64,000 nucleotides of DNA from Arthrobacter sunyaminii (GTDB lineage Bacteria; Actinomycetota; Actinomycetes; Actinomycetales; Micrococcaceae), in the NCBI RefSeq assembly GCF_018866305.1, contig NZ_CP076456.1, positions 1,736,001 through 1,800,000 of the forward strand, in the 5' to 3' direction. Numbering within the stretch: position 1 is the first letter of the stretch; each line of letters opens with the position of its first letter. Made by a program: the position numbers and the translations under genes. Under the pieces are notes generated by a model that did not search any database, had not been told where the DNA came from, and worked only from the letters and a program-made list of their open reading frames with translations. Shown piece after piece: positions 6,447 to 26,252 of this stretch.

Positions 6447-7046
6447 TCAGACCAGCCCGGCGGACCAGCGCAGCCGCAGGCTCTCCTCCAATTCCTGCTC
6501 GGCGATCCGCCGGCCAATCTCGGCCAGCTGATCCTGGAGCAGTGGAATCCAGCGGTTCTCCACGGCACGCTGCCGGGTGCGGGTGGCGAGCAGTTCCCGG
6601 GACACCAGGAGCAGAGCCCGTTCGGTGCCCGCCGCAGTGACCGCGGCCTGCAGGGCCTCCCGATGCGCTGCGGCGGCATAGGCCAGAGCTGAACTCCCGC
6701 CGGTTGGCGACGGATCGGGGAGCAGGCACTCGGCATCCTGCGGATAGGAAATCCCCATGGCGCCGCCCCACCGAACCGTTACCCGCGCGGGGTTATCCGG
6801 TGCTGCCTCCATGATGCGGTCATCACCATCCAAACCCGCAGCACGCTGCAGCCACACGGCCGCCCGGCGGGCCTGCTCCTGCCACGCGAGGCGGGCGGCA
6901 TCTGCCTCCTCCTGCAGCCCGTCGATCGCGAGCCGGAGAATCCGCTGCTTGCGGTCCAGCAGTTCGGCGCCCCGGGTGGCAGTGGCCAGGCGGCGCTCGA
7001 CGTCGGCCTTGTCAGCCCGGCTGCCGGTGCTGCGGAACCCGCTCAC
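6447..7046 (-). CDS. ntpD: V/A-type ATPase subunit D (central stalk)
   Basis: The D subunit forms the long coiled-coil rotor shaft inside the A3B3 head. At 199 residues it is near the usual size. The N-terminal helix contains the DRKQRILRLAIDGLQEE pattern, and the C-terminal helix has LAEIGRRIAEQELEE, giving the two antiparallel helices of this family. The GTG start overlaps the stop of subunit B by 4 bases. It is the last gene of the operon, ending 51 bases from the convergent cyclase-family gene with no clear terminator between. Confidence 0.88.
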   Translation of the reverse strand: MSGFRSTGSRADKADVERRLATATRGAELLDRKQRILRLAIDGLQEEADAARLAWQEQARRAAVWLQRAAGLDGDDRIMEAAPDNPARVTVRWGGAMGISYPQDAECLLPDPSPTGGSSALAYAAAAHREALQAAVTAAGTERALLLVSRELLATRTRQRAVENRWIPLLQDQLAEIGRRIAEQELEESLRLRWSAGLV

Positions 7047-8518
7047 AGCGAAGCACCGCCTTCGGGGCCGGGCAGATATTTGTCCAGGAACTCGGCGGAC
7101 AACATGTTCAGCTCCCGCCGGGGCAGCAGCGACAAAGCCTGCCAGGCGCGTGCCATGGTTTCGTCGAAAGTCCGCAGCTCGTCCCTGCCCTGGTTGAGCA
7201 GGTCATGCTCCACCACGTTGCGGAACTCAATGTAGGCGTTATCGGTCTCGCTCAGGGCTGCCGTGCCCACCAGTTCGGCCAGCTCCGCGGCGGACCGCGC
7301 ACGGGCCATCGCCGAGAGAATCTGGGCGGCCACGTCCAGGTGATCCTCCCGGGTGCGGCCTTTCCCCGCGCCGCTGCGCATCAGACGGGACAACGAGGAC
7401 AGCTCATCCACCGGAGGGTAAATGCCCCGCGCGTCGACGTCCGGATCCAGGACCACCTGGCCCTCGGTGATGTAACCCGTGAGGTCGGGAACGGGATGGG
7501 TGATGTCCCCGGCCGGCATGGTCAGCACCGGCACTATGGTCACCGAGCCTTCCCTGCCCTGCACCCGGCCGCAGCGCTCATAGAGCGTCGCCAGATCGCT
7601 GTACAGGTAGCCGGGATAGCCGCGCCGGGCCGGAATCTCCCGCCGGGCAGCGGAGACTTCGCGGACTGCTTCGGCATAACTGGTCATGTCCGACATGACC
7701 ACCAGCACGTCCGAGCCGTGGTCATACGCCAGGGACTCGGCCACGGTCAGGGCAATGCGGGGAGTGAGGATGCGTTCGATCACCGGATCATCGGCGGCGT
7801 TCAGGAGCAGCACCAGCTCACCGGCGGCGGAGCGTTCCTCCAGCCGGTCCCGGATAAAGGCAATGTCCGCGTGCGTCATGCCCATGGCTGCAAACACCAC
7901 CCGGAACGCCCGCCCGGAGGAGGTGGTGGCCTGTGCGGCAATCTGCGTCGCCAGGGTGAGGTGGGGCAGGCCGGGAACCGAGAAGATCGGCAGTTTTTGT
8001 CCCCGGACCAGAGTGGTCAGGGCATCGATGGCTGAGATGCCCGTAAGCACCGGATCCTGGGGAGGCTCGCGGTACACGGGGTTCAGCGGCCAGCCGCCCA
8101 CCGGCATGGGCGTTCCTCCGGTCACCGGGGGGCCGCCGTCGAGCGGTTCACCGCGCCCGTTGCATACCCGGCCAAGCCAGCCGGGGCCTGCGGGAACCGC
8201 CAGCGGGCGGCCCGAGAAACGGATCTCAATGCCGCCCAGTGACATGCCCTCGGTGCCCTCGAGCACCTGCAGGGTGGTTTCATCCCCGTCCACCTCAAGC
8301 ACGAGACCATGCCGGTCCGGCTGGCCGCTGACCGCAACGGTGGCGAACTCGTCCCAGCCCACCCCCTCGGCATCGCCCAGCACCAGCAACGGTCCGCGCA
8401 GCTCCCGCACACCGCTGTGCCCCACGCCGGGAATGGCGGAGGCCGGCACCGGGCCGGCGGCATTGGTGTCCGTGGAGCCGGCCGGCACCGGATTTGCCCT
8501 GCTGTCATGTGCCGCCAT
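7043..8518 (-). CDS. ntpB: V/A-type ATPase subunit B
   Basis: The non-catalytic nucleotide-site subunit, which alternates with A in the head. It is 491 residues long. It has no P-loop, as expected for B. SDMTSYAEAVREVSAARREIPARRGYPGYLYSDLA is diagnostic when read in two halves (SDMTSYAEAVREVS and IPARRGYPGYLYSDLA), as is ITEGQVVLDPDVDARGIYPP. The frame stays open far upstream, but the start is placed at ATG 8518, with GGGAGG six bases upstream and a 14-base overlap with the end of subunit A. The first 40 residues form a loosely conserved extension. Confidence 0.93.
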   Translation of the reverse strand: MAAHDSRANPVPAGSTDTNAAGPVPASAIPGVGHSGVRELRGPLLVLGDAEGVGWDEFATVAVSGQPDRHGLVLEVDGDETTLQVLEGTEGMSLGGIEIRFSGRPLAVPAGPGWLGRVCNGRGEPLDGGPPVTGGTPMPVGGWPLNPVYREPPQDPVLTGISAIDALTTLVRGQKLPIFSVPGLPHLTLATQIAAQATTSSGRAFRVVFAAMGMTHADIAFIRDRLEERSAAGELVLLLNAADDPVIERILTPRIALTVAESLAYDHGSDVLVVMSDMTSYAEAVREVSAARREIPARRGYPGYLYSDLATLYERCGRVQGREGSVTIVPVLTMPAGDITHPVPDLTGYITEGQVVLDPDVDARGIYPPVDELSSLSRLMRSGAGKGRTREDHLDVAAQILSAMARARSAAELAELVGTAALSETDNAYIEFRNVVEHDLLNQGRDELRTFDETMARAWQALSLLPRRELNMLSAEFLDKYLPGPEGGASL

Positions 8519-10364
8519 TGATGCCTCCCGAAGATTCCCTGCCGGTTTCTGCACGGTCCGGTTCTGCGCGGTCCTGTCCTGCACGGTCTGGTCCAGCACC
8601 GCCCAGTTGCTCCAGCTGGCGCAGAAACTCGCGTCCCTGTGTCCAGACGCCGTCGGCATCGGCGGGTCCGGTTGTCTCGCGCAGCCGCAGCACAGGTGTG
8701 AAGTCCACGCGTTCGACGTCGGCCGCCGGGACACCGCGCGCCACCAGTGCCTGGCACGCATCCACCACGTCCAGCACAATCTGCAGCAGTGCCGACCCCT
8801 TTTCAGCCGATGAGTAACCGTCATTGGGGCTGAGCGCGTTCTGCAGCAGGACGCCGTCGCGCACCAGCCGCCCGCCCAGCAGCACCATCTGCTCATGCCC
8901 GGGCAGGGACGCGGTGCCGATGATCTCGGCCAGGGCGGTGAGCCGGTCCGCTTCGGAGAGCAGCAGAGTGGCCGACGCCCGGCGCTGGGCCCACAGCGGA
9001 TCTCCGTTCGCTGTGTGCCAGCGGGCCAGAGCCTCGGCATCACGGGCGAAGGAGCCCCGCCAGCTGACGGCCGGATAGTGCCGGGAGTAGGCGAGGTCCC
9101 GGTCCAGCACCCACAGGGAACGCACAAAGCGCTGGGTGTCGGTGGTCACCGGTTCGCTCATGTCGCCGCCGGGAGGGGAGACAGCGCCAATGACGGTGAC
9201 CGACGCCGTCGCGCCGCCGAGCGTGCGCACCCGCGCCGCCCGCTCGTAAAAGGCGGACAGTTCGCTGGCCAGGGAGGCGGGATAGCCTTCCTCGGCCGGG
9301 AGGTCGCCGTTGCGGTTGGCGAACTCGCGCAGGGCCTCAGCCCATCGGGAGGTGGAATCGGCAATGACGACGGCGTCGTACCCCATGTCGCGGAAGAACT
9401 CGGCCACGGTGACGCCGCTGGCAATGGAAGCCTCCCGGGCCATCATGGGCATGTTGGAGGTATTGGCGATGATCACGGTCCGGTCGATCAGTTTGCCTCC
9501 GGTGCGGGGGTCGTCCAGATCGGAGAGGCCGTCCAGCACGTCCGCCATTTCGTTGCCGCGCTCGCCGCAGCCCACATAGACAATGACGTCGGCGTCGGAC
9601 CACTTGGCGATCTGCTGCAGGGTGAGGGTCTTTCCCGTGCCAAACCCGCCCGGGACGGCCGCTGCCGAGCCACGGGGGAGCGGAAAGAGCAGGTCGAGGA
9701 CCCGCTGTCCCGTGTGCAGGGGCAACGCCTCGGTCAGGCGCTCGCCGAAAGGCCGGGCAGTATGCACCGGCCACTGCTGCGCCAGCGGCACCTCCACCCC
9801 GTCTACGCGTGCCACCGGATCGAGGGGATGGACGGAACCCTCCGCCAGCCACTGGACAACGCCGGCGACGGCGGGGGGCACCATCACGCGGAACTCCACG
9901 GTGCCCGCCCCCGGGACTGTGCCGATGATCTGTCCGGGCTGCACGGTGTCTCCAATGTTCACCGAAGGGGTGAACTCCCATTCGGTTTCCAGCACCGTCG
10001 GATCTTCCGCCGAAGCCTGCCGGTCCTGGGTCAGCCACAGGGGAGCGGAGGACAGCGGACGCAGCAGCCCGTCAAACACTGTTCCCAGCAGGCCCGGCCC
10101 CAGCAGCCCGGAAAGCTGGTGGCCGGACCGTTCCGCCGGGTCGCCGGACTTCAGTCCGCCGGTGTATTCATACGCCTGAAGCGTGGCATTCTCTCCGTTG
10201 ATCGCCACTACCTGGGCGGAAATCCGCTCCGGACCGATGGCCACAATTTCCAGCATGGACAGTCCCTGCAGGCCCGTGATCTCCACCAGCGGTCCGCTGA
10301 CCCTGGTGATGGTTCCTGTTTCGAGGCCGGAACTGCTGCCAGCGGTGTTCACTCGGCGTCCCAT
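8505..10364 (-). CDS. ntpA: V/A-type ATPase subunit A (catalytic)
   Basis: The catalytic ATP-hydrolysing or synthesising subunit, 619 residues, slightly longer than the roughly 590 usual. The P-loop GGFGTGKT lies near residues 238-245. NTSNMPMMAREASIASG and ADSTSRWAEALRE are classic A-subunit motifs. The A-specific non-homologous insertion lies before the P-loop. The C-terminal 40 residues are rich in Asp, Arg and Glu repeats, which looks like an unconserved tail. It starts with ATG 10364, with GGGGAGG upstream, and overlaps subunit E by 16 bases. Complete and apparently functional. Confidence 0.95.
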   Translation of the reverse strand: MGRRVNTAGSSSGLETGTITRVSGPLVEITGLQGLSMLEIVAIGPERISAQVVAINGENATLQAYEYTGGLKSGDPAERSGHQLSGLLGPGLLGTVFDGLLRPLSSAPLWLTQDRQASAEDPTVLETEWEFTPSVNIGDTVQPGQIIGTVPGAGTVEFRVMVPPAVAGVVQWLAEGSVHPLDPVARVDGVEVPLAQQWPVHTARPFGERLTEALPLHTGQRVLDLLFPLPRGSAAAVPGGFGTGKTLTLQQIAKWSDADVIVYVGCGERGNEMADVLDGLSDLDDPRTGGKLIDRTVIIANTSNMPMMAREASIASGVTVAEFFRDMGYDAVVIADSTSRWAEALREFANRNGDLPAEEGYPASLASELSAFYERAARVRTLGGATASVTVIGAVSPPGGDMSEPVTTDTQRFVRSLWVLDRDLAYSRHYPAVSWRGSFARDAEALARWHTANGDPLWAQRRASATLLLSEADRLTALAEIIGTASLPGHEQMVLLGGRLVRDGVLLQNALSPNDGYSSAEKGSALLQIVLDVVDACQALVARGVPAADVERVDFTPVLRLRETTGPADADGVWTQGREFLRQLEQLGGAGPDRAGQDRAEPDRAETGRESSGGINGGT

Positions 10365-10872
10365 AACCGGTGCACCTCCCCGGCACGGTTTTCCAGCGCC
10401 TGTGCTGCCAGCGCGGGCAGGGAGAAGTCCAGATGTCTGGATCCTGCCGTTGCGGTCACCCCGCCCTTGTAGCTCTCTGTCACTGAAGCCATGGGCCCCA
10501 AGATGCTGTCCGCCCGTTCGGTGAGGATTCGCAGCAAACGCGGATACCGGGGATCACTGCGCAGCTCCTGTGCCTGTTGCTGGACTTGTTGGATCAGCTC
10601 GGCGCGGAGGGCTTCCTGCTGTGCCAGGACGGTGCGCCGTGCCTGCCGCCGGATGCGTGCGGAACGTCCGGAAGCCTCGGTGCGGGCAGCTTCGCGGCCC
10701 TGCTGCTCAGCGGTTTTCCGGATCTCGTCCGCTTCCGCCCGGGCGGTGCTGAGAATCGCGTCGGACTGGGCCCGGGCATCCTCGGCCAACCTGCTGGCCT
10801 CTTTGTCTGCTCCGCGCCGCAGGGCATAACGGAGCGGTTCAAGGGATGCTTCGGATCCCGAGGGAAGGCGGC

Positions 10873-10876
<4 letters not shown>
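10349..10876 (-). CDS. ntpE: V/A-type ATPase subunit E (peripheral stalk)
   Basis: This 175-residue protein begins with a long charged Ala/Glu/Arg helix (about residues 20-105) and ends in a small globular domain, the layout of subunit E, which anchors the head to subunit I. Sequence conservation is low, as is usual for this subunit, so the call rests on layout and position between F and A. ATG overlaps the stop of F (ATGA, 4 bases). It would pair with the G/H-type coiled-coil protein encoded at the start of the operon. Confidence 0.8.
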
Positions 10877-12848
<1,972 letters not shown>

Positions 12849-12862
<14 letters not shown>

Positions 12863-13883
12863 CGAGCACCTCGCTGTTTCCGGCGTTCACCGCGGCAGCA
12901 GCCAGTGCTGCCCGCACACGCCAGGCATCCACGGCCAGTACAGCCATGGCGCCCAGAACAACGTCAGGACCTGGCAAACCCGCCCGCAACAGATGAAACC
13001 CGTCCATCTCCACCCGTGCCGCCAGCAGCGCTTCACCGCGCCAGAGTTCGGTGGGGATCTGCAGTGAGTTCAGCGCCTGCGCCGGTCCGGGGGGAAGGAC
13101 GGCGCGCAGGGCATCAGGGTTGTCGGCGCCCACCCAGCCGGTTCCAATCAGCGGCCGTAGCAGCGACAGCAGCCGCTCTCCGGGGGAGGACCTGTCAATA
13201 GAGACCAGCCGGGCACAGAGCAGGGCAGCTGCTGAAGCAGCCCAGGAACGTGCCGGCGGTGCCTCGTTGGCAAGCCGCCGGAGCCAGACCATGGTGAGGA
13301 CATCGGACAGTGCAGCGTCCTGCCCGGGATCGCCCCACGGGGAAGAACTCAGCGCGGACCGCAGCTCTTCCACGGTGCCGGCTGTTTGAATCCGGGGCCA
13401 TGCTGTTGCCAGCCCGCCAAGGTCAAAGGGCTGAAAGTCCTCGCCGGACCTGGAACTGCGACCGGAACCTGCCCCGGTGTCCGGGCTTGACCCGGTACCT
13501 GTGCCTGCTCCGGTATCCGTGCTTGAGTTCGGGGTGTCCTGGCGCGTTTGGGCGGTCTGCTCCCGCCGCAGTTTAAGCTCCAGAGACAAAATGTTGTCGG
13601 CTTCGAACACGGCAGCGGCAGAACGAACCAGCCGCGCACCTCCGGCCGGGAGCCAGCCGGCAAGGACCCTCAACTGCCACAGGACTGTCCTGCGCGTGGC
13701 ACGCTGTGCCTGGGCCAATGTCTGAACAAGCTCCAGCTCATCCGCATAGGCTGTTACGGCAAGACGGTCCAGGGCGGCCTGCAGATCCGGCGAGGCGGCG
13801 ATCCCGCGGCAGGTCCCCGCGCCGACGCGGCGCTGGGCCATGGACCGCGCGCGAACGGAGGCCGCGACCCAATCTGACCTCAT
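12849..13883 (-). CDS. ntpC: V/A-type ATPase subunit C (V0d/AC39-like)
   Basis: The funnel-shaped helical subunit that links the D/F rotor to the K ring. It is 344 residues, close to the family length, and nearly all helix. A low-complexity Gly/Thr/Ser/Asp linker at about residues 117-145 splits it into two helical lobes, which is unusual. Family similarity is weak, as expected for this subunit, but the size, the helical content and the position between the coiled-coil protein and subunit I support it. It overlaps the upstream gene by 4 bases. Confidence 0.75.
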
Positions 13884-14365
13884 GGTGCGGCGTCACTTCC
13901 GTGCTTATCGGTGTCCGCGGCATTTGCCTGATCTGCGCCGGAGCCAAGCAGATCGGAAACCAAATCCGCCACAATGGCAGCAGCCAACTGCGGCACGCGG
14001 GATTCACCCCGGCGTTTCAGTGCCGCTGCCTCTTCCTTTGCCTGGCCGAGCATCTGCTCATCGGAGGCAACAGCTTCCCGGGAAACGGCTGCCGCGGCGT
14101 TGGCGCGGACAGCGCCGCTGTCCATCCGGGCCTGTTCCACCATGGCTGCAGCCTGGGTTCGTGCCTGGGCAACCGTATCTGCTGCCCTCGCGGTCGCCGA
14201 GTCCACCAGAATCCTGCCGTCGCGGATGGTTGGGTCCAGCGCCTCAAAGACCGGAACAAGTTCGGCTTCGGGGCCCTGATCATCGCCGGCAGGTACTCCG
14301 GAAGGGCCTGCAGGGCCGGGTGCTCCCACAGGCCGGAACCGATCGAGCAAGCTGTTGCGTGCCAT
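13880..14365 (-). CDS. V/A-type ATPase peripheral-stalk coiled-coil subunit (G/H-like)
   Basis: This 161-residue protein has a disordered Gly/Pro-rich start (to about residue 30), then a long Ala/Glu/Gln/Arg helix with VAQARTQAAAMVEQAR and a second helical run to about 140. This is the make-up of subunit G/H, the partner of E in the peripheral stalk. It is the first ATPase gene of the operon, with a strong AGGAGG site before ATG 14365 and a 4-base overlap with subunit C. No sequence motif is decisive, so the call depends on the coiled coil and the operon, which otherwise lacks this subunit. Confidence 0.7.
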   Translation of the reverse strand: MARNSLLDRFRPVGAPGPAGPSGVPAGDDQGPEAELVPVFEALDPTIRDGRILVDSATARAADTVAQARTQAAAMVEQARMDSGAVRANAAAAVSREAVASDEQMLGQAKEEAAALKRRGESRVPQLAAAIVADLVSDLLGSGADQANAADTDKHGSDAAP

Positions 14366-14466: not shown

Positions 14467-14808
14467 CTAACCCCCGGGGGCGCCGTCGCCGTCTCCGGTT
14501 GCCTCAGCTTCGGAAGCCTCGCCGTGCTGGACAATGTCACCGTCCGTAAACAGGATTCCCCGTGCAATTTGCCGCCACAACGGGGTCCGGCGCAGCAGGA
14601 ACTCGAGCTCCATGCTGAAGTGCTTGAACTCTTCGCCCAGGGAATCGTGCATGATGGCGCGGGACTCGGCATCGGGCTCAACAGCCATGCGCTGGACGTA
14701 CCAGCCAATGGCTTCAGCCTCCTCGCTCAGGCTGGCGCACATTCGGGCGAAGGTCCTGGTTTCAGCGGGAAGTTCCGATGGCGGCTCGTGGTACTGCTCT
14801 GTGCCCAT
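14467..14808 (-). CDS. Encapsulated-ferritin-like (EncFtn-like) protein without visible cargo-loading peptide
   Basis: This 113-residue, two-helix protein aligns without gaps to the core of encapsulated ferritins. SEEAEAIGWYVQRM and GEEFKHFSMELEFLLRR match the EncFtn helices. Glu30, Glu60 and His63 fall where the ferroxidase ligands sit (Glu32, Glu62, His65 in the Rhodospirillum protein), with Glu32 and Trp36 also kept. ILFTDGDI matches the LFTEGPI turn after helix 2. The tail is acidic and Gly-rich and lacks the usual short hydrophobic/GSL cargo peptide, and no encapsulin gene is in the window. ATG 14808 is preferred over ATG 14841 because AGGAGA lies just upstream of it. It precedes the V-ATPase operon by 101 bases on the same strand. 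Confidence 0.75.
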   Translation of the reverse strand: MGTEQYHEPPSELPAETRTFARMCASLSEEAEAIGWYVQRMAVEPDAESRAIMHDSLGEEFKHFSMELEFLLRRTPLWRQIARGILFTDGDIVQHGEASEAEATGDGDGAPGG

Positions 14809-14876
14809 GCTCGTCTCCTGGTCCGGCCGGGATGCGGCCATGGTTCCGGCTCGGTCGCGTTAAGTCCTGTCCTTCG

Positions 14877-14905
14877 AGGTTACGGTTGGGTCTGCGGGGA
14901 AACAA
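14877..14905 (-). promoter_or_regulatory. Candidate promoter for the EncFtn-like gene and V-ATPase operon
   Basis: On the minus strand TTGTTT (14905-14900) and TAACCT (14882-14877) are separated by 17 bases, about 70 bases upstream of ATG 14808. The -10 fits the actinobacterial TANNNT pattern. There is no comparable pair in the 101-base gap before the ATPase genes, so this may serve the whole unit. Confidence 0.35.
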
Positions 14906-14940: not shown

Positions 14941-14971
14941 AAGGCCCGGATGCAGCGTGCATCCGGGCCTT
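14941..14971 (-). terminator. Rho-independent terminator of the msrB/flavin reductase unit
   Basis: AAGGCCCGGATGCA (14941-14954) and its exact complement (14958-14971) enclose a 3-base loop. Read on the minus strand the stem is followed by TTTT at 14942-14939. It lies 17 bases after the flavin reductase stop and separates that unit from the EncFtn-like gene. Confidence 0.85.
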
Positions 14972-14988: not shown

Positions 14989-15534
14989 TCAGGCGAGCCG
15001 CCCGTAAGCGGACGCGAAATGCACCAGGGGATCAGCCTCGTCGTCGGCCGAAGCACGCCGTCCCATCGCCGCCACTTCACCCACCACCAACTGGTGAGTG
15101 GCCGCCGTCGTCACCTGCGTGGTGCGGACCTCGAACCAGGCGATGCAGCCTTCCATAACGGCGGCTCCGGTGACGGGCCCGCGGCCGTAGTCAACCTGGC
15201 TCAGCAGTCCTTCCAACGGAGATCCGGGACTTGCCAGCCAATTTGCCGTGCCGCGCTGGCGGGCGGAGAGCAGGCTCAGCGCCCAGGTTCCGCTGTCCAC
15301 CACGGCCTCGGCGATCCGCGACTCTGCATAAAGACTCACCAGCAGCGTTGGCGGGTCGTAGGAAACCGAAAGGAAACCGCTCACTGTCGCGGCGTAGTCC
15401 CGGCCCCGCAGCCGGGTGGAAACCACAGCCACGCCGGAGGCAATGTCAGCGCTGAGCAACCGGTAGCTGTCGATCGCCTCGTCGGTAACTTCCGCGGAGG
15501 GAATCAGCTCTCCCGGGAAGACACCGTGCTCCAC
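14989..15534 (-). CDS. Flavin reductase family protein
   Basis: A 181-residue single-domain FMN-binding reductase. DSYRLLSADIASGVAVVST, then AATVSGFLSVSYDPPTLLVSL and the later GDGAxxF-like segment AWFEVR with HQLVVGEV, are the standard motifs. Such enzymes reduce FMN or FAD with NAD(P)H, usually to supply a monooxygenase. No monooxygenase partner is adjacent. It starts with GTG 15534, seven bases after the msrB stop, so the two are probably co-transcribed and end at the terminator at 14941. The electron acceptor is unknown. Confidence 0.85.
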   Translation of the reverse strand: MEHGVFPGELIPSAEVTDEAIDSYRLLSADIASGVAVVSTRLRGRDYAATVSGFLSVSYDPPTLLVSLYAESRIAEAVVDSGTWALSLLSARQRGTANWLASPGSPLEGLLSQVDYGRGPVTGAAVMEGCIAWFEVRTTQVTTAATHQLVVGEVAAMGRRASADDEADPLVHFASAYGRLA

Positions 15535-15541
15535 GGTGGAG

Positions 15542-15988
15542 CTACTTGGCGCCGTCTGCGGAGGCGGACTCCGACGGAACCAGCTTCACGGAGACGGAGT
15601 TGATGCAGAAGCGCTGATCGGTGGGCGTGTCAAAGCCTTCACCCTCGAACAGGTGGCCCATGTGGGAGTCACAGTTGGCGCAGCGGACCTCGATCCGGTC
15701 CATGCCCATGCTGCGGTCATGAAGGTAGCGGACCTTGCCTTCTGACAGCGGGGCAAAGAAGGACGGCCAGCCGCAGTGCGAATCGAACTTTTCACTTGAG
15801 GTAAACAGTTCGCTTCCGCAGGCCCGGCACTGGTAGACGCCGGCAGTCTTGGTGTCCCAGTACTCGCCGGTGTACGGGCGCTCGGTTCCGGCCTTCCGCA
15901 GGACCTGGTACTCCTCGGGGGTCAGTTCCTCACGCCACTGGTCATCTGTTTTTTGCACGGGCACGGTTCCGGTAGTCTCTTTCGTCAT
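15542..15988 (-). CDS. msrB: Peptide-methionine (R)-S-oxide reductase
   Basis: Reduces methionine-R-sulfoxide in proteins. The 148-residue protein has the zinc cysteines Cys54/Cys57 (CRAC) and Cys103/Cys106 (CANC), the GWPSF motif at 74-78 and catalytic Cys128 in RFCINSVS. The frame is open further upstream, but ATG 15988 gives the family start, and the extra residues would overlap the upstream gene. It lies 14 bases after the conserved unknown gene and just before flavin reductase, a small redox unit. msrA is not in this window. Confidence 0.95.
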   Translation of the reverse strand: MTKETTGTVPVQKTDDQWREELTPEEYQVLRKAGTERPYTGEYWDTKTAGVYQCRACGSELFTSSEKFDSHCGWPSFFAPLSEGKVRYLHDRSMGMDRIEVRCANCDSHMGHLFEGEGFDTPTDQRFCINSVSVKLVPSESASADGAK

Positions 15989-16002
15989 ATCCGGGTCAAC
16001 GC

Positions 16003-16494
16003 TTAAGAGCCGCCAATAAATCCCGAGCCCGAGTAGAGGTGCAGCACCGGCACCCCCAAGCGCTCCTGGGCTTCGTTTGCCCAATCGGTCCGGAACGTGT
16101 CCTCTACGGCGTGCGGCGTGGTGATCACGACAACCTGCTGTGCATTCGTTGCCTTCGCCGCGGCAACCACTGCCTGAACCGGGTCCTCTCCCGTCACTGA
16201 GCCGCCGGCTTCCAGGCCCGACGACGCCAGCAGTGCCAGCGATTCGCTCAGCTGAACTTCGGCAGCCTTTGTCTCCTGGTCCTTCGTGGGTTTTCCACCG
16301 GTCAGGTCTCGGAATGCTTCTGCAAACTGAAGCAGGCTCAGGTTGTCCAACACATCAACGAGCAGGTTGCGTCCGGTATCGGCCGGGACCAGCACCTCAA
16401 AGCGGGCCGGGTTGTCCTGGATCAGATACCGCAGGTTGGTGATGTCCACTTCATTGAGGGACTCTTCGGTCAGCACCACGATTGTTGCAGTCAT
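16003..16494 (-). CDS. Conserved actinobacterial protein, universal-stress-like fold
   Basis: This 163-residue soluble protein alternates strands and helices. It starts TATIVVLTEESLNEV and contains QVVVITTPHAVEDTF followed by RLGVPVLHLY, the pattern of a Rossmann-like or universal-stress-like domain. The nucleotide-binding Gly motif of true universal stress proteins is not visible. It is the first gene of the unit with msrB and flavin reductase (14-base gap), so a role in stress or redox response is possible but unproven. I cannot name a family with confidence. Confidence 0.6.
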   Translation of the reverse strand: MTATIVVLTEESLNEVDITNLRYLIQDNPARFEVLVPADTGRNLLVDVLDNLSLLQFAEAFRDLTGGKPTKDQETKAAEVQLSESLALLASSGLEAGGSVTGEDPVQAVVAAAKATNAQQVVVITTPHAVEDTFRTDWANEAQERLGVPVLHLYSGSGFIGGS

Positions 16495-24592: not shown

Positions 24593-24936
24593 AGACCAAG
24601 ATTCGCAGTATCAGTCCGCACCATCGAACACATATTCGAGTTTGTGGAAAAGAGGCGGCCACGGAGCGTCGATCGGCATCTGTGGAGGAGGATGGGGCCG
24701 TGGAGGGAGGGCGAGGATCGCCAGGGGGAGGGAGCCGAATGAGCAGGACAGGGGGAGTAACCAGGACGGCCGGAAAGCTGCGGTCGCATCCCGAGCCAGG
24801 GCCGTCGTCGTGCCGACTGTACAAATCCGCTGCCCATCCCGCCATCAATGCGGGAACCCAGCAGCTTAAATGCAGAAGGAGCAGGCCAATTCAATGGCCT
24901 GCTCCTTCAAACGCCGCTCCGTAGAGCAACTGTGCG
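24593..24936. other. Intergenic region between the HNH gene and the tRNA array
   Basis: These 344 bases contain the upstream region of the DUF222/HNH gene and the terminator of the tRNA array (24875-24908). The short open frames here overlap each other, lack ribosome sites and resemble no family, so I annotate none. Confidence 0.5.
24875..24908 (-). terminator. Terminator of the minus-strand tRNA array
   Basis: GAAGGAGCAGGCCA (24875-24888) and its exact complement (24895-24908) enclose a 6-base loop. It lies 28 bases beyond the 3' end of the last tRNA-Gly. The T-tract is weak (TTCTGCATTT). Confidence 0.75.
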
Positions 24937-25010
24937 AGCGGACGACGGGATTCGAACCCGCGACATCCACCTTGGCAAGGTGGTGCTCTAGCCAGCTGAG
25001 CTACGTCCGC
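24937..25010 (-). tRNA. tRNA-Gly(GCC), copy 1
   Basis: A 74-base cloverleaf with acceptor GCGGACG/CGTCCGC, anticodon loop TTGCCAA in a CCACC/GGTGG stem, and T-loop TTCGAAT. The anticodon GCC reads GGC and GGU. CCA is not encoded. Confidence 0.97.
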
Positions 25011-25035
25011 AAAACAAGACAACCTAAGTTGTCCG

Positions 25036-25107
25036 TGCGCGATACTGGGATCGAACCAGTGACCTCTTCCGTGTCAGGGAAGCGCGCTACCGCTGCGCCA
25101 ATCGCGC
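25036..25107 (-). tRNA. tRNA-Val(GAC), copy 1
   Basis: A 72-base cloverleaf with acceptor GCGCGAT/ATCGCGC, anticodon stem CTTCC/GGAAG and loop CTGACAC (anticodon GAC). CCA is not encoded. Confidence 0.97.
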
Positions 25108-25151
25108 TTGATGCATCGAATCTCCCAAAGGTGAGTCGATGCAGTCAAGAG

Positions 25152-25225
25152 AGCGGACGACGGGATTCGAACCCGCGACATCCACCTTGGCAAGGTGGTG
25201 CTCTAGCCAGCTGAGCTACGTCCGC
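25152..25225 (-). tRNA. tRNA-Gly(GCC), copy 2
   Basis: Identical over all 74 bases to the copy at 24937-25010. Together with the neighbouring tRNA-Val it forms a repeated Gly-Val unit. The spacer before it holds a TGCATCGA/TCGATGCA hairpin. Confidence 0.97.
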
Positions 25226-25261
25226 AAAAACACAGTTGTGCGCCAAAACGCCAAACTGTAG

Positions 25262-25333
25262 TGCGCGATACTGGGATCGAACCAGTGACCTCTTCCGTGT
25301 CAGGGAAGCGCGCTACCGCTGCGCCAATCGCGC
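25262..25333 (-). tRNA. tRNA-Val(GAC), copy 2
   Basis: Identical over all 72 bases to the copy at 25036-25107, with anticodon GAC. Confidence 0.97.
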
Positions 25334-25359
25334 CCAAAGGGCTTGCAAGTCCTCTGTGG

Positions 25360-25430
25360 AGGTGGGGACGGGATTCGAACCCGCGTATACGGCTTTGCAG
25401 GCCGCTGCCTCGCCTCTCGGCCACCCCACC
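25360..25430 (-). tRNA. tRNA-Cys(GCA)
   Basis: A 71-base cloverleaf with acceptor GGTGGGG/CCCCACC, anticodon stem GCGGC/GCCGT (one G-T pair) and loop CTGCAAA with anticodon GCA. It is the only tRNA-Cys in the window. Confidence 0.96.
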
Positions 25431-25492
25431 GTGACCGCTGCGTAAGCATAGGCCGACCAGTCAGAATCAACCGGTTTGTACAGGGACTTGCG

Positions 25493-25566
25493 AGCGGACG
25501 ACGGGATTCGAACCCGCGACATCCACCTTGGCAAGGTGGTGCTCTAGCCAGCTGAGCTACGTCCGC
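25493..25566 (-). tRNA. tRNA-Gly(GCC), copy 3
   Basis: Identical to the other two Gly copies. It is the most upstream tRNA of the minus-strand array, so the array promoter should lie to its right, in 25567-25700. Confidence 0.97.
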
Positions 25567-26174
25567 ATGCTGTAAAAGTGGGAGTATTAGACCTCGAATC
25601 GCTTTCGCTTTTCGCGGCGAACTCCCGCTTTCCAACGAAGAAAAACTCTATAGGACTATTTGGAGTTCGTCCAATCGGGCCGGTTTTTGCGCCCGCAGCG
25701 CCCGGATCCGATTCACGGCGTTATCGCAGGTGGGGGCTATGGGCGGATGGTGCGTGGCCATCGAATGCTCCGGCGGAGACTGGCGTTAGAGGATGAGTAC
25801 GAGGGGCGGCCTGCCCCAGTACGGCAGTACGACGACGGCGCTTTTCGGGCGTCATCATCGGTACCGGCGGATGTCCGAAGCTACGGAACGCCGGCCCGCA
25901 GTGTGCGGGACGAAGATCTCCGCGGGTACGTGACGCAGATCTGTGTGGACTAACGCAGATCTGTGTGGACTAAGGTCGCCTGGGCCAGGGCGGCCGCCGG
26001 TGCCCTCGCATTGGGGGATCCCGGGGGAGGGTACACGTTCTTCGCCGGGGGAACGGAGTAACCTTGCCCGCATCAAACGCCGTCGTTGTCTGGCCACCGA
26101 GTGCCGGTTTGGCGCCAGCTCCGATCTGGGCTAGCATCTTTAGACGTTGCGGTTGTGAAAACAACACGCGGCTT
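25567..26174. other. Intergenic region between the divergent tRNA genes
   Basis: About 600 bases without a convincing gene. A plus-strand frame from ATG 25747 to TAA 25953 would give 68 residues, rich in Arg, Asp and Tyr, but it has no ribosome site and no recognisable family. Its stop lies inside the 20-bp tandem duplication at 25933. The region must hold promoters for both tRNA units. It may be decayed sequence. Confidence 0.45.
25933..25972. repeat. Perfect 20-bp tandem duplication
   Basis: The unit ACGCAGATCTGTGTGGACTA occurs twice without a gap (25933-25952 and 25953-25972). The unit contains AGATCT. There are no further copies in the window, so it is a local duplication rather than an array. 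Confidence 0.9.
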
Positions 26175-26246
26175 GGGGGCGATTGGCGCAGTGGTAGCGC
26201 GCTTCGTTCACACCGAAGAGGTCACTGGTTCGAACCCAGTATCGCC
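26175..26246 (+). tRNA. tRNA-Val(CAC)
   Basis: A 72-base cloverleaf with acceptor GGGCGAT/ATCGCCC, anticodon stem CTTCG/CGAAG and loop TTCACAC (anticodon CAC, reading GUG). CCA follows at 26247-26249, so unlike the array tRNAs its 3' CCA appears to be encoded. Confidence 0.96.
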
Positions 26247-26252
26247 CACCAA

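Follow-up and report, generated by a model that had tools for sequence, protein, structure and literature searches.

The 64,000-nucleotide stretch of Arthrobacter sunyaminii DNA analyzed here (the window; contig NZ_CP076456.1, positions 1,736,001 to 1,800,000) encodes on its minus strand, at 14467..14808, an EncFtn-type ferritin of 113 residues which, to judge from the layout of the sequence, holds the leading place after the probable promoter of an operon for a V/A-type ATPase. By sequence criteria this is a free EncFtn, with neither a Family 1 encapsulin shell nor the peptide that docks cargo in one, and its linkage to the ATPase genes is genus-wide. The explanation that we favor, with a probability of about 0.65, is that the protein is a free cytosolic ferroxidase that shares a promoter with the ATPase and is jointly expressed with it, the two not forming one machine.

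What marks the protein as an EncFtn? The Pfam model PF22277 matches it with an E-value of 5e-19 (68.2 bits; cut-off 27) and spans the two-helix domain, and phmmer, run against PDB sequences, aligns it to Rhodospirillum rubrum EncFtn (E 2e-14) without gaps and with a residue offset of 2. This offset puts E30, E60, and H63 of the window protein on E32, E62, and H65 of R. rubrum, which an excerpt of the R. rubrum study names, together with Tyr39, as ferroxidase ligands (PMC5012862); a reading of the window made earlier from the letters alone (the sequence-only reading) had proposed the same gap-free alignment and the same correspondence. E30, E60, H63, and Y37 are in register and invariant across 41 aligned sequences, the window's included, and the ligand pattern recurs in 79 of the 80 named relatives that we compared (the best 80 of 288); the exception, locus L186, has between the ligands a threonine that the pattern disallowed. 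The predicted structure (predicted local distance difference test score, pLDDT, 90.8) matches the EncFtn fold, on whose presence the sequence-only reading depended. The encapsulin-associated ferritin-like model TIGR04535 gives the protein 74.4 bits against a curated cut-off of 125, a cut-off that seems non-discriminating here because even the best E-value among the 41 aligned sequences, trimmed cargo forms included, is only 1.7e-24. The start assumed for the open reading frame is the one that begins the conserved M-x-x-(D/E)QYHEPP; an alternative in-frame ATG at 14841 would yield 124 residues, and the relatives can be aligned only from the second start. The protein is thus, by alignment and structure prediction, an EncFtn-type, two-helix ferritin-like protein with conserved ferroxidase ligands, and by analogy with its relatives it may form dimers and a D5 decamer with a di-iron ferroxidase center at the dimer interface.

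The features that would tie this ferritin to a Family 1 shell are missing. Its C-terminus ends ...EATGDGDGAPGG and carries no cargo peptide, and the Family 1 encapsulin model PF04454 finds no gene in the source genome (one contig, 3.91 Mb), while three control genomes were positive; on both counts the sequence-only reading was right, for the shell gene as far as Family 1 goes. The absence extends to the genus, by which we mean Arthrobacter of the citreus/luteolus group: PF04454 matches in 0/29 genomes, again with positive controls, and the EncFtn proteins of the genus loci that were read are 106-126 residues long without the peptide (frameshifted L026 excluded). A search for Family 2 encapsulins (PF19307) likewise gave 0/29, but its controls were silent too, so that it provides no evidence.

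Among the best 80 of 288 named relatives, in which C-termini were read and the surrounding DNA was searched for encapsulin, shell and peptide go together. An encapsulin gene is adjacent in 49, and all 49 of these proteins (125-143 residues) carry a cargo-loading peptide, recognized by a SLGIGSL-type pattern that was widened once variants were seen. The other 31 have no capsid gene nearby, a few of these absences being weak because the flanks were uneven, some as short as a few bases and others as long as 10 kb per side, and L153 runs off its contig; 30 of them are 99-126 residues long and lack the peptide. The last one, an EncFtn of Skermania sp. ID1734 (L131, 10001-10387), has a cargo-peptide-like tail, SLDIGGLKG, and no encapsulin match in the surrounding 20 kb, and is possibly a cargo encoded apart from its shell. 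A sample of 245 genomes of the family contains EncFtn in 40 and encapsulin in 36; by coordinates, 22 of its 27 out-of-genus EncFtn genes adjoin an encapsulin gene, and the five that do not (L090, L092, L093, L100, and L101) all lack the peptide. In a phylum sample of 396 genomes, PF22277 matches at E 0.001 or better in 72, of which a 45-bit threshold of our own keeps 27 and drops 45 weaker ones; 16 of the 27, the source genome included and several of them incomplete bins, have no PF04454 match. These family and phylum counts indicate that EncFtn-type proteins lacking encapsulin are not rare.

Is a shell-less EncFtn simply a cargo in decay? We compared the window with 11 of the 12 named congeners that have the ATPase link (L119 left out; two genes were compared with 10). 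The median ratio of nonsynonymous to synonymous divergence (dN/dS) is 0.041 for EncFtn, 0.082 for subunit B, 0.093 for the neighboring methionine sulfoxide reductase MsrB, 0.113 for subunit K, and 0.16-0.26 for I, A, the C-like subunit, D, F, and both stalk genes; the proportion of synonymous differences (pS) is 0.47-0.65 in this comparison, close enough to saturation that the ratios are rough. No gene of the operon is more tightly constrained than EncFtn, which is under strong purifying selection. Its low dN/dS argues that the shell-less form is not generally a decaying cargo, yet three congeners have lost it and one carries a frameshift. The idea of a free EncFtn-type iron protein, one of two offered by the sequence-only reading, is thus supported from three sides: no Family 1 shell in the genus, no cargo peptide, and strong purifying selection.

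Of the 29 genus genomes, 26 have EncFtn and 27 the ATPase A subunit. In 24/26, the next genes after EncFtn, in the same orientation, are the first two of the ATPase, across a gap of 4-146 bp (median 44; 23 measurable loci), and the earlier suggestion that EncFtn heads the ATPase operon, which adjacency in this genome only would have undercut, is therefore supported across the genus. Twelve of the best 80 relatives have the ATPase link, and all are Arthrobacter (A. citreus, A. luteolus, A. koreensis, A. gandavensis, and A. zhaoxinii among them), while none of the seven ATPase loci from other genera in the family sample (L075-L081) contains EncFtn, and Tersicoccus and Paenarthrobacter have a free EncFtn to which the ATPase is not adjacent. 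The linkage is therefore genus-wide and, in the family sample and among the best 80 of 288 relatives, was not found outside the genus. The ATPase itself is patchy in the family, its A subunit occurring in 22/245 genomes and 5/32 genera.

The exceptions within the genus run both ways. Of the 27 ATPase-bearing congeners, 24 retain EncFtn and three (G001, G006, and G025) have the ATPase without an intact copy; remnants survive as a short fragment in G025 and, apparently, as a few codons of the 3' end in G001. Conversely, A. gallicola and A. pullicola keep EncFtn, the promoter-like element described below, and both collinear flanks, with the ATPase block replaced by other DNA (about 8 kb between the conserved flanks in A. 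gallicola, L130 10320-18455); because the two species are sisters in the tree, this loss counts as one event. MsrB stays beside EncFtn in loci that lack the ATPase, too; it was seen in 25/26 short genus loci and in a longer locus of the 26th genome.

Free EncFtn genes elsewhere keep other company. Gene clustering over 22 loci (three of them from Arthrobacter; close neighbors at L133, L186, and L117 not covered) revealed no immediate neighbor shared outside Arthrobacter; three gene families recur in 3-5 of the 22 loci, mostly kilobases off and at differing distances. A ClC channel with DUF2254 (L100), cytochrome oxidase I (L090), and ThiF (L092) were considered as shared neighbors and dropped, each being seen once. 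In a tree of 102 short EncFtn sequences (99 columns, NE0167 of Nitrosomonas europaea not included), Arthrobacter joins Tersicoccus with support 81/86, amid free and cargo forms; a single origin of all free forms, or the number of tail losses, is beyond what so poorly resolved a tree can decide. A description of the EncFtn-ATPase linkage was not found in the titles and abstracts of the papers that literature searches listed. A drought transcriptome of Arthrobacter sp. Helios (PMC9608346) has a 7-fold decrease for a gene called "ferritin", which may or may not correspond to the one described here.

Upstream of EncFtn, at 14874..14905 on the minus strand, stands a promoter-like element, TTGTTT-N17-TAACCT-CGA, whose conserved form is TTGTNN-N17/18-TANNNT-(C/G)GA. 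The search pattern TTGNNN-N16-19-TANNNT[CG]GA is found in 29/29 genus genomes, on whose sequences it was fitted; a scan of both strands of 4.06 Mb gives 39 matches, a background of 0.003 per 330 bp in which the true sites are counted. The three congeners without an intact EncFtn keep the element, whose start lies 162-223 bp ahead of the leading ATPase gene, and no second copy was found between EncFtn and the ATPase genes in 24 genomes; in the other genera, the 450 bp that precede the ATPase genes do not contain the element (0/7, L075-L081). Its retention before the ATPase genes of EncFtn-less congeners argues that the element very probably serves both EncFtn and the ATPase. The comparative evidence for such a joint, still putative, promoter is strong, and joint regulation and expression of EncFtn and the ATPase is likely on the same sequence grounds.

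Farther upstream, at 14941..14971 on the minus strand, a terminator-like hairpin with four consecutive T (predicted RNA folding energy -28.7 kcal/mol, z -4.2) lies between the flavin reductase gene and the EncFtn/ATPase unit and probably closes the flavin reductase unit. In some other loci (L074, 13630-13730, minus strand; L189; and the region ahead of EncFtn in L002-L004), inspection by eye found a hairpin followed by at least four T, with its 5' arm within the -10 of the element; such a hairpin could stop read-through from MsrB, not transcripts from the promoter-like element. The flavin reductase (14989..15534, minus strand; PF01613, E 3e-28) occupies this place in 19/26 genus loci, and beyond it lies MsrB, the SelR-type reductase (15542..16018, minus strand, start not mapped; PF01641, E 1e-49).

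Downstream of EncFtn follow nine same-strand genes, the first beginning 101 bp past it. A 161-residue, stalk-like (E/b-type) protein (13880..14365) has no Pfam match and weak NCBIfam matches, b/E among others (E 0.004-0.09), and a 344-residue protein (12849..13883) has no Pfam or NCBIfam match; both are conserved in place, the second standing where subunit C would be. Next come subunit I (a; 11558..12862; PF01496, E 3e-19) and the rotor subunit K (c; 11100..11561; PF00137, E 2e-16, residues 90-149; V-type c subunits in PDB), which at 153 residues consists of a single canonical c-hairpin (90-149) preceded by an extension of some 85 residues. They are followed by an F-like subunit (10873..11103; PF01990, E 0.003) and an E-like subunit (10349..10876; PF01991, E 4e-4), both below cut-off, the catalytic subunit A (8505..10364; NF003220, 634 bits, cut-off 470; PF16886), subunit B (7043..8518; PF00006 and PF22919; ATG start at 8518 from the translation), and subunit D (6447..7046; PF01813, E 1e-24). 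The description of these as nine V/A-ATPase genes holds for the five clear subunits, I, K, A, B, and D, less so for the F-like and E-like proteins and for the first two genes, whose assignment depends mainly on where they stand. One operon unites catalytic A and B, rotor D and K, and stator I. The two distinct stalk-like proteins, encoded at 13880-14365 and 10349-10876, are possibly two chains of one peripheral stalk. Elsewhere in the window, seven tRNA genes (Gly, Val, Cys) lie at 24936-26251, and several overlapping open reading frames listed across them are probably spurious.

How could such a protein work without a shell? Since encapsulin and docking peptide are both gone, EncFtn would act in the cytosol, where it may assemble into dimers and decamers as its relatives do, and would oxidize and buffer Fe(II) in defense against iron and oxidative stress, beside MsrB, whose retention even without the ATPase fits such a setting. 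The Fe(III) might then be handed on, for instance to ferritin/Dps-type proteins, as the source genome encodes two PF00210 proteins. As the first gene of its transcription unit, EncFtn would have a promoter that also serves the V/A-ATPase genes; these may have arrived downstream of that promoter when EncFtn was already free, a placement that would bring joint expression without making the two one machine.

Several points weigh against this account. According to an excerpt of the R. rubrum study, isolated EncFtn is a ferroxidase that neither stores nor mineralizes iron and is precipitated by excess iron (PMC5012862); because it oxidizes iron and cannot store it, a free EncFtn needs some acceptor. 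Three congeners have lost the gene and in G023 it is frameshifted, unless this is a sequencing error, so that EncFtn is not essential. No promoter emerged from a scan with the plain sigma-70 consensus, and the 14941-14971 hairpin was not among the hits of a simple terminator scan. A T-run of four or more occurs in two of the 23 measured EncFtn-ATPase gaps and a T-rich stretch in two more, making partial termination after EncFtn possible there; we infer co-transcription from spacing and footprinting. The suggested order, EncFtn free first and the ATPase genes later, depends on a tree of poor resolution.

Could EncFtn and the ATPase instead form one functional module, the ATPase handling the protons of Fe(II) oxidation and hydrolysis, for example, or both serving acid and iron stress defense? 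The shared promoter-like element, the genus-wide gene order, and the retention of EncFtn by 24/27 ATPase-bearing congeners speak for it. However, the ATPase lacks an intact EncFtn in G001, G006, and G025 and in all seven out-of-genus loci, A. gallicola and A. pullicola keep EncFtn between collinear flanks without the ATPase, and free EncFtn genes elsewhere have no common immediate neighbor. Moreover, MsrB is as constant a neighbor, so adjacency to the ATPase alone says little. Since either part is found in genomes that lack its partner, we do not favor a shared mechanism and regard functional coupling as rather unlikely. A role for EncFtn in proton pumping, which the sequence-only reading had floated, is unsupported: nothing beyond the shared promoter-like element speaks for it, and other genera, too, have either gene without the other. 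A more elaborate version is quite improbable: that an Arthrobacter lineage tied an ex-cargo iron enzyme to a V/A-type ATPase, so that proton-releasing Fe(II) oxidation and pumping are co-induced as an acid/iron-stress module that feeds Fe(III) to ferritins.

At the other extreme, the order might be kept only by local synteny in the genus, with EncFtn and the ATPase regulated separately. The equal constancy of MsrB and the variation of the gap from 4 to 146 bp would fit, but synonymous sites are widely diverged (pS 0.47-0.65), and separate regulation does not explain why the three EncFtn-less genomes keep the element before the ATPase genes while the others lack a second copy in the gap; plain hitch-hiking thus seems improbable. 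The other idea of the sequence-only reading, that EncFtn is a cargo whose shell is encoded elsewhere in the genome or belongs to another family, can point to a fold and sequence family that are those of cargo and to a Family 2 search whose silent controls leave it no evidence against that family. For Family 1 shells it is rejected by the absence of PF04454 from the source genome and from all 29 genomes of the genus with controls positive, and the lack of a cargo peptide, present in 49/49 capsid-adjacent relatives (best 80 of 288), makes it highly improbable overall. A free ferroxidase expressed with the ATPase from a shared promoter remains the reading that we prefer.

What does this arrangement add to known EncFtn systems? 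The excerpted R. rubrum work concluded that iron storage requires EncFtn housed in an encapsulin (PMC5012862); a strongly constrained EncFtn, with no Family 1 encapsulin in 29 genomes, indicates a shell-independent job for the domain. Natural controls exist within the genus, some genomes having EncFtn and no ATPase and others the ATPase and no intact EncFtn, and with them both this job and any tie to the ATPase can be tested directly in common soil strains. Tail-less EncFtn as such is already known, and named "s-FLP" in an excerpt of a review (PMC11202242); the variant here is a free EncFtn that heads an ATPase operon.

Compared with the Family 1 cargo ferritins of the FLP-TP class (R. rubrum Rru_A0973, PDB 5da5; Haliangium ochraceum, PDB 5n5f), the window form lacks the cargo-loading peptide, belongs to a genus without Family 1 encapsulin, and has a different operon partner. 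Like the s-FLP of N. europaea (NE0167, PDB 3k6c), it is an EncFtn domain without the long tail and targeting peptide; NE0167 is shorter, at 95 residues, and the window protein matches NE0167 less well (46 bits) than it does the EncFtn of R. rubrum (57 bits). The free form of Arthrobacter is placed among actinobacterial cargo proteins, a position, in a tree built without NE0167, that fits separate losses of the tail and is not proof of them. Other genera of the Micrococcaceae have V/A-type ATPase operons (L075-L081) with the same nine-gene order as the window; in all seven, the locus contains no EncFtn, and the promoter-like element of Arthrobacter is missing from the 450 bp upstream.
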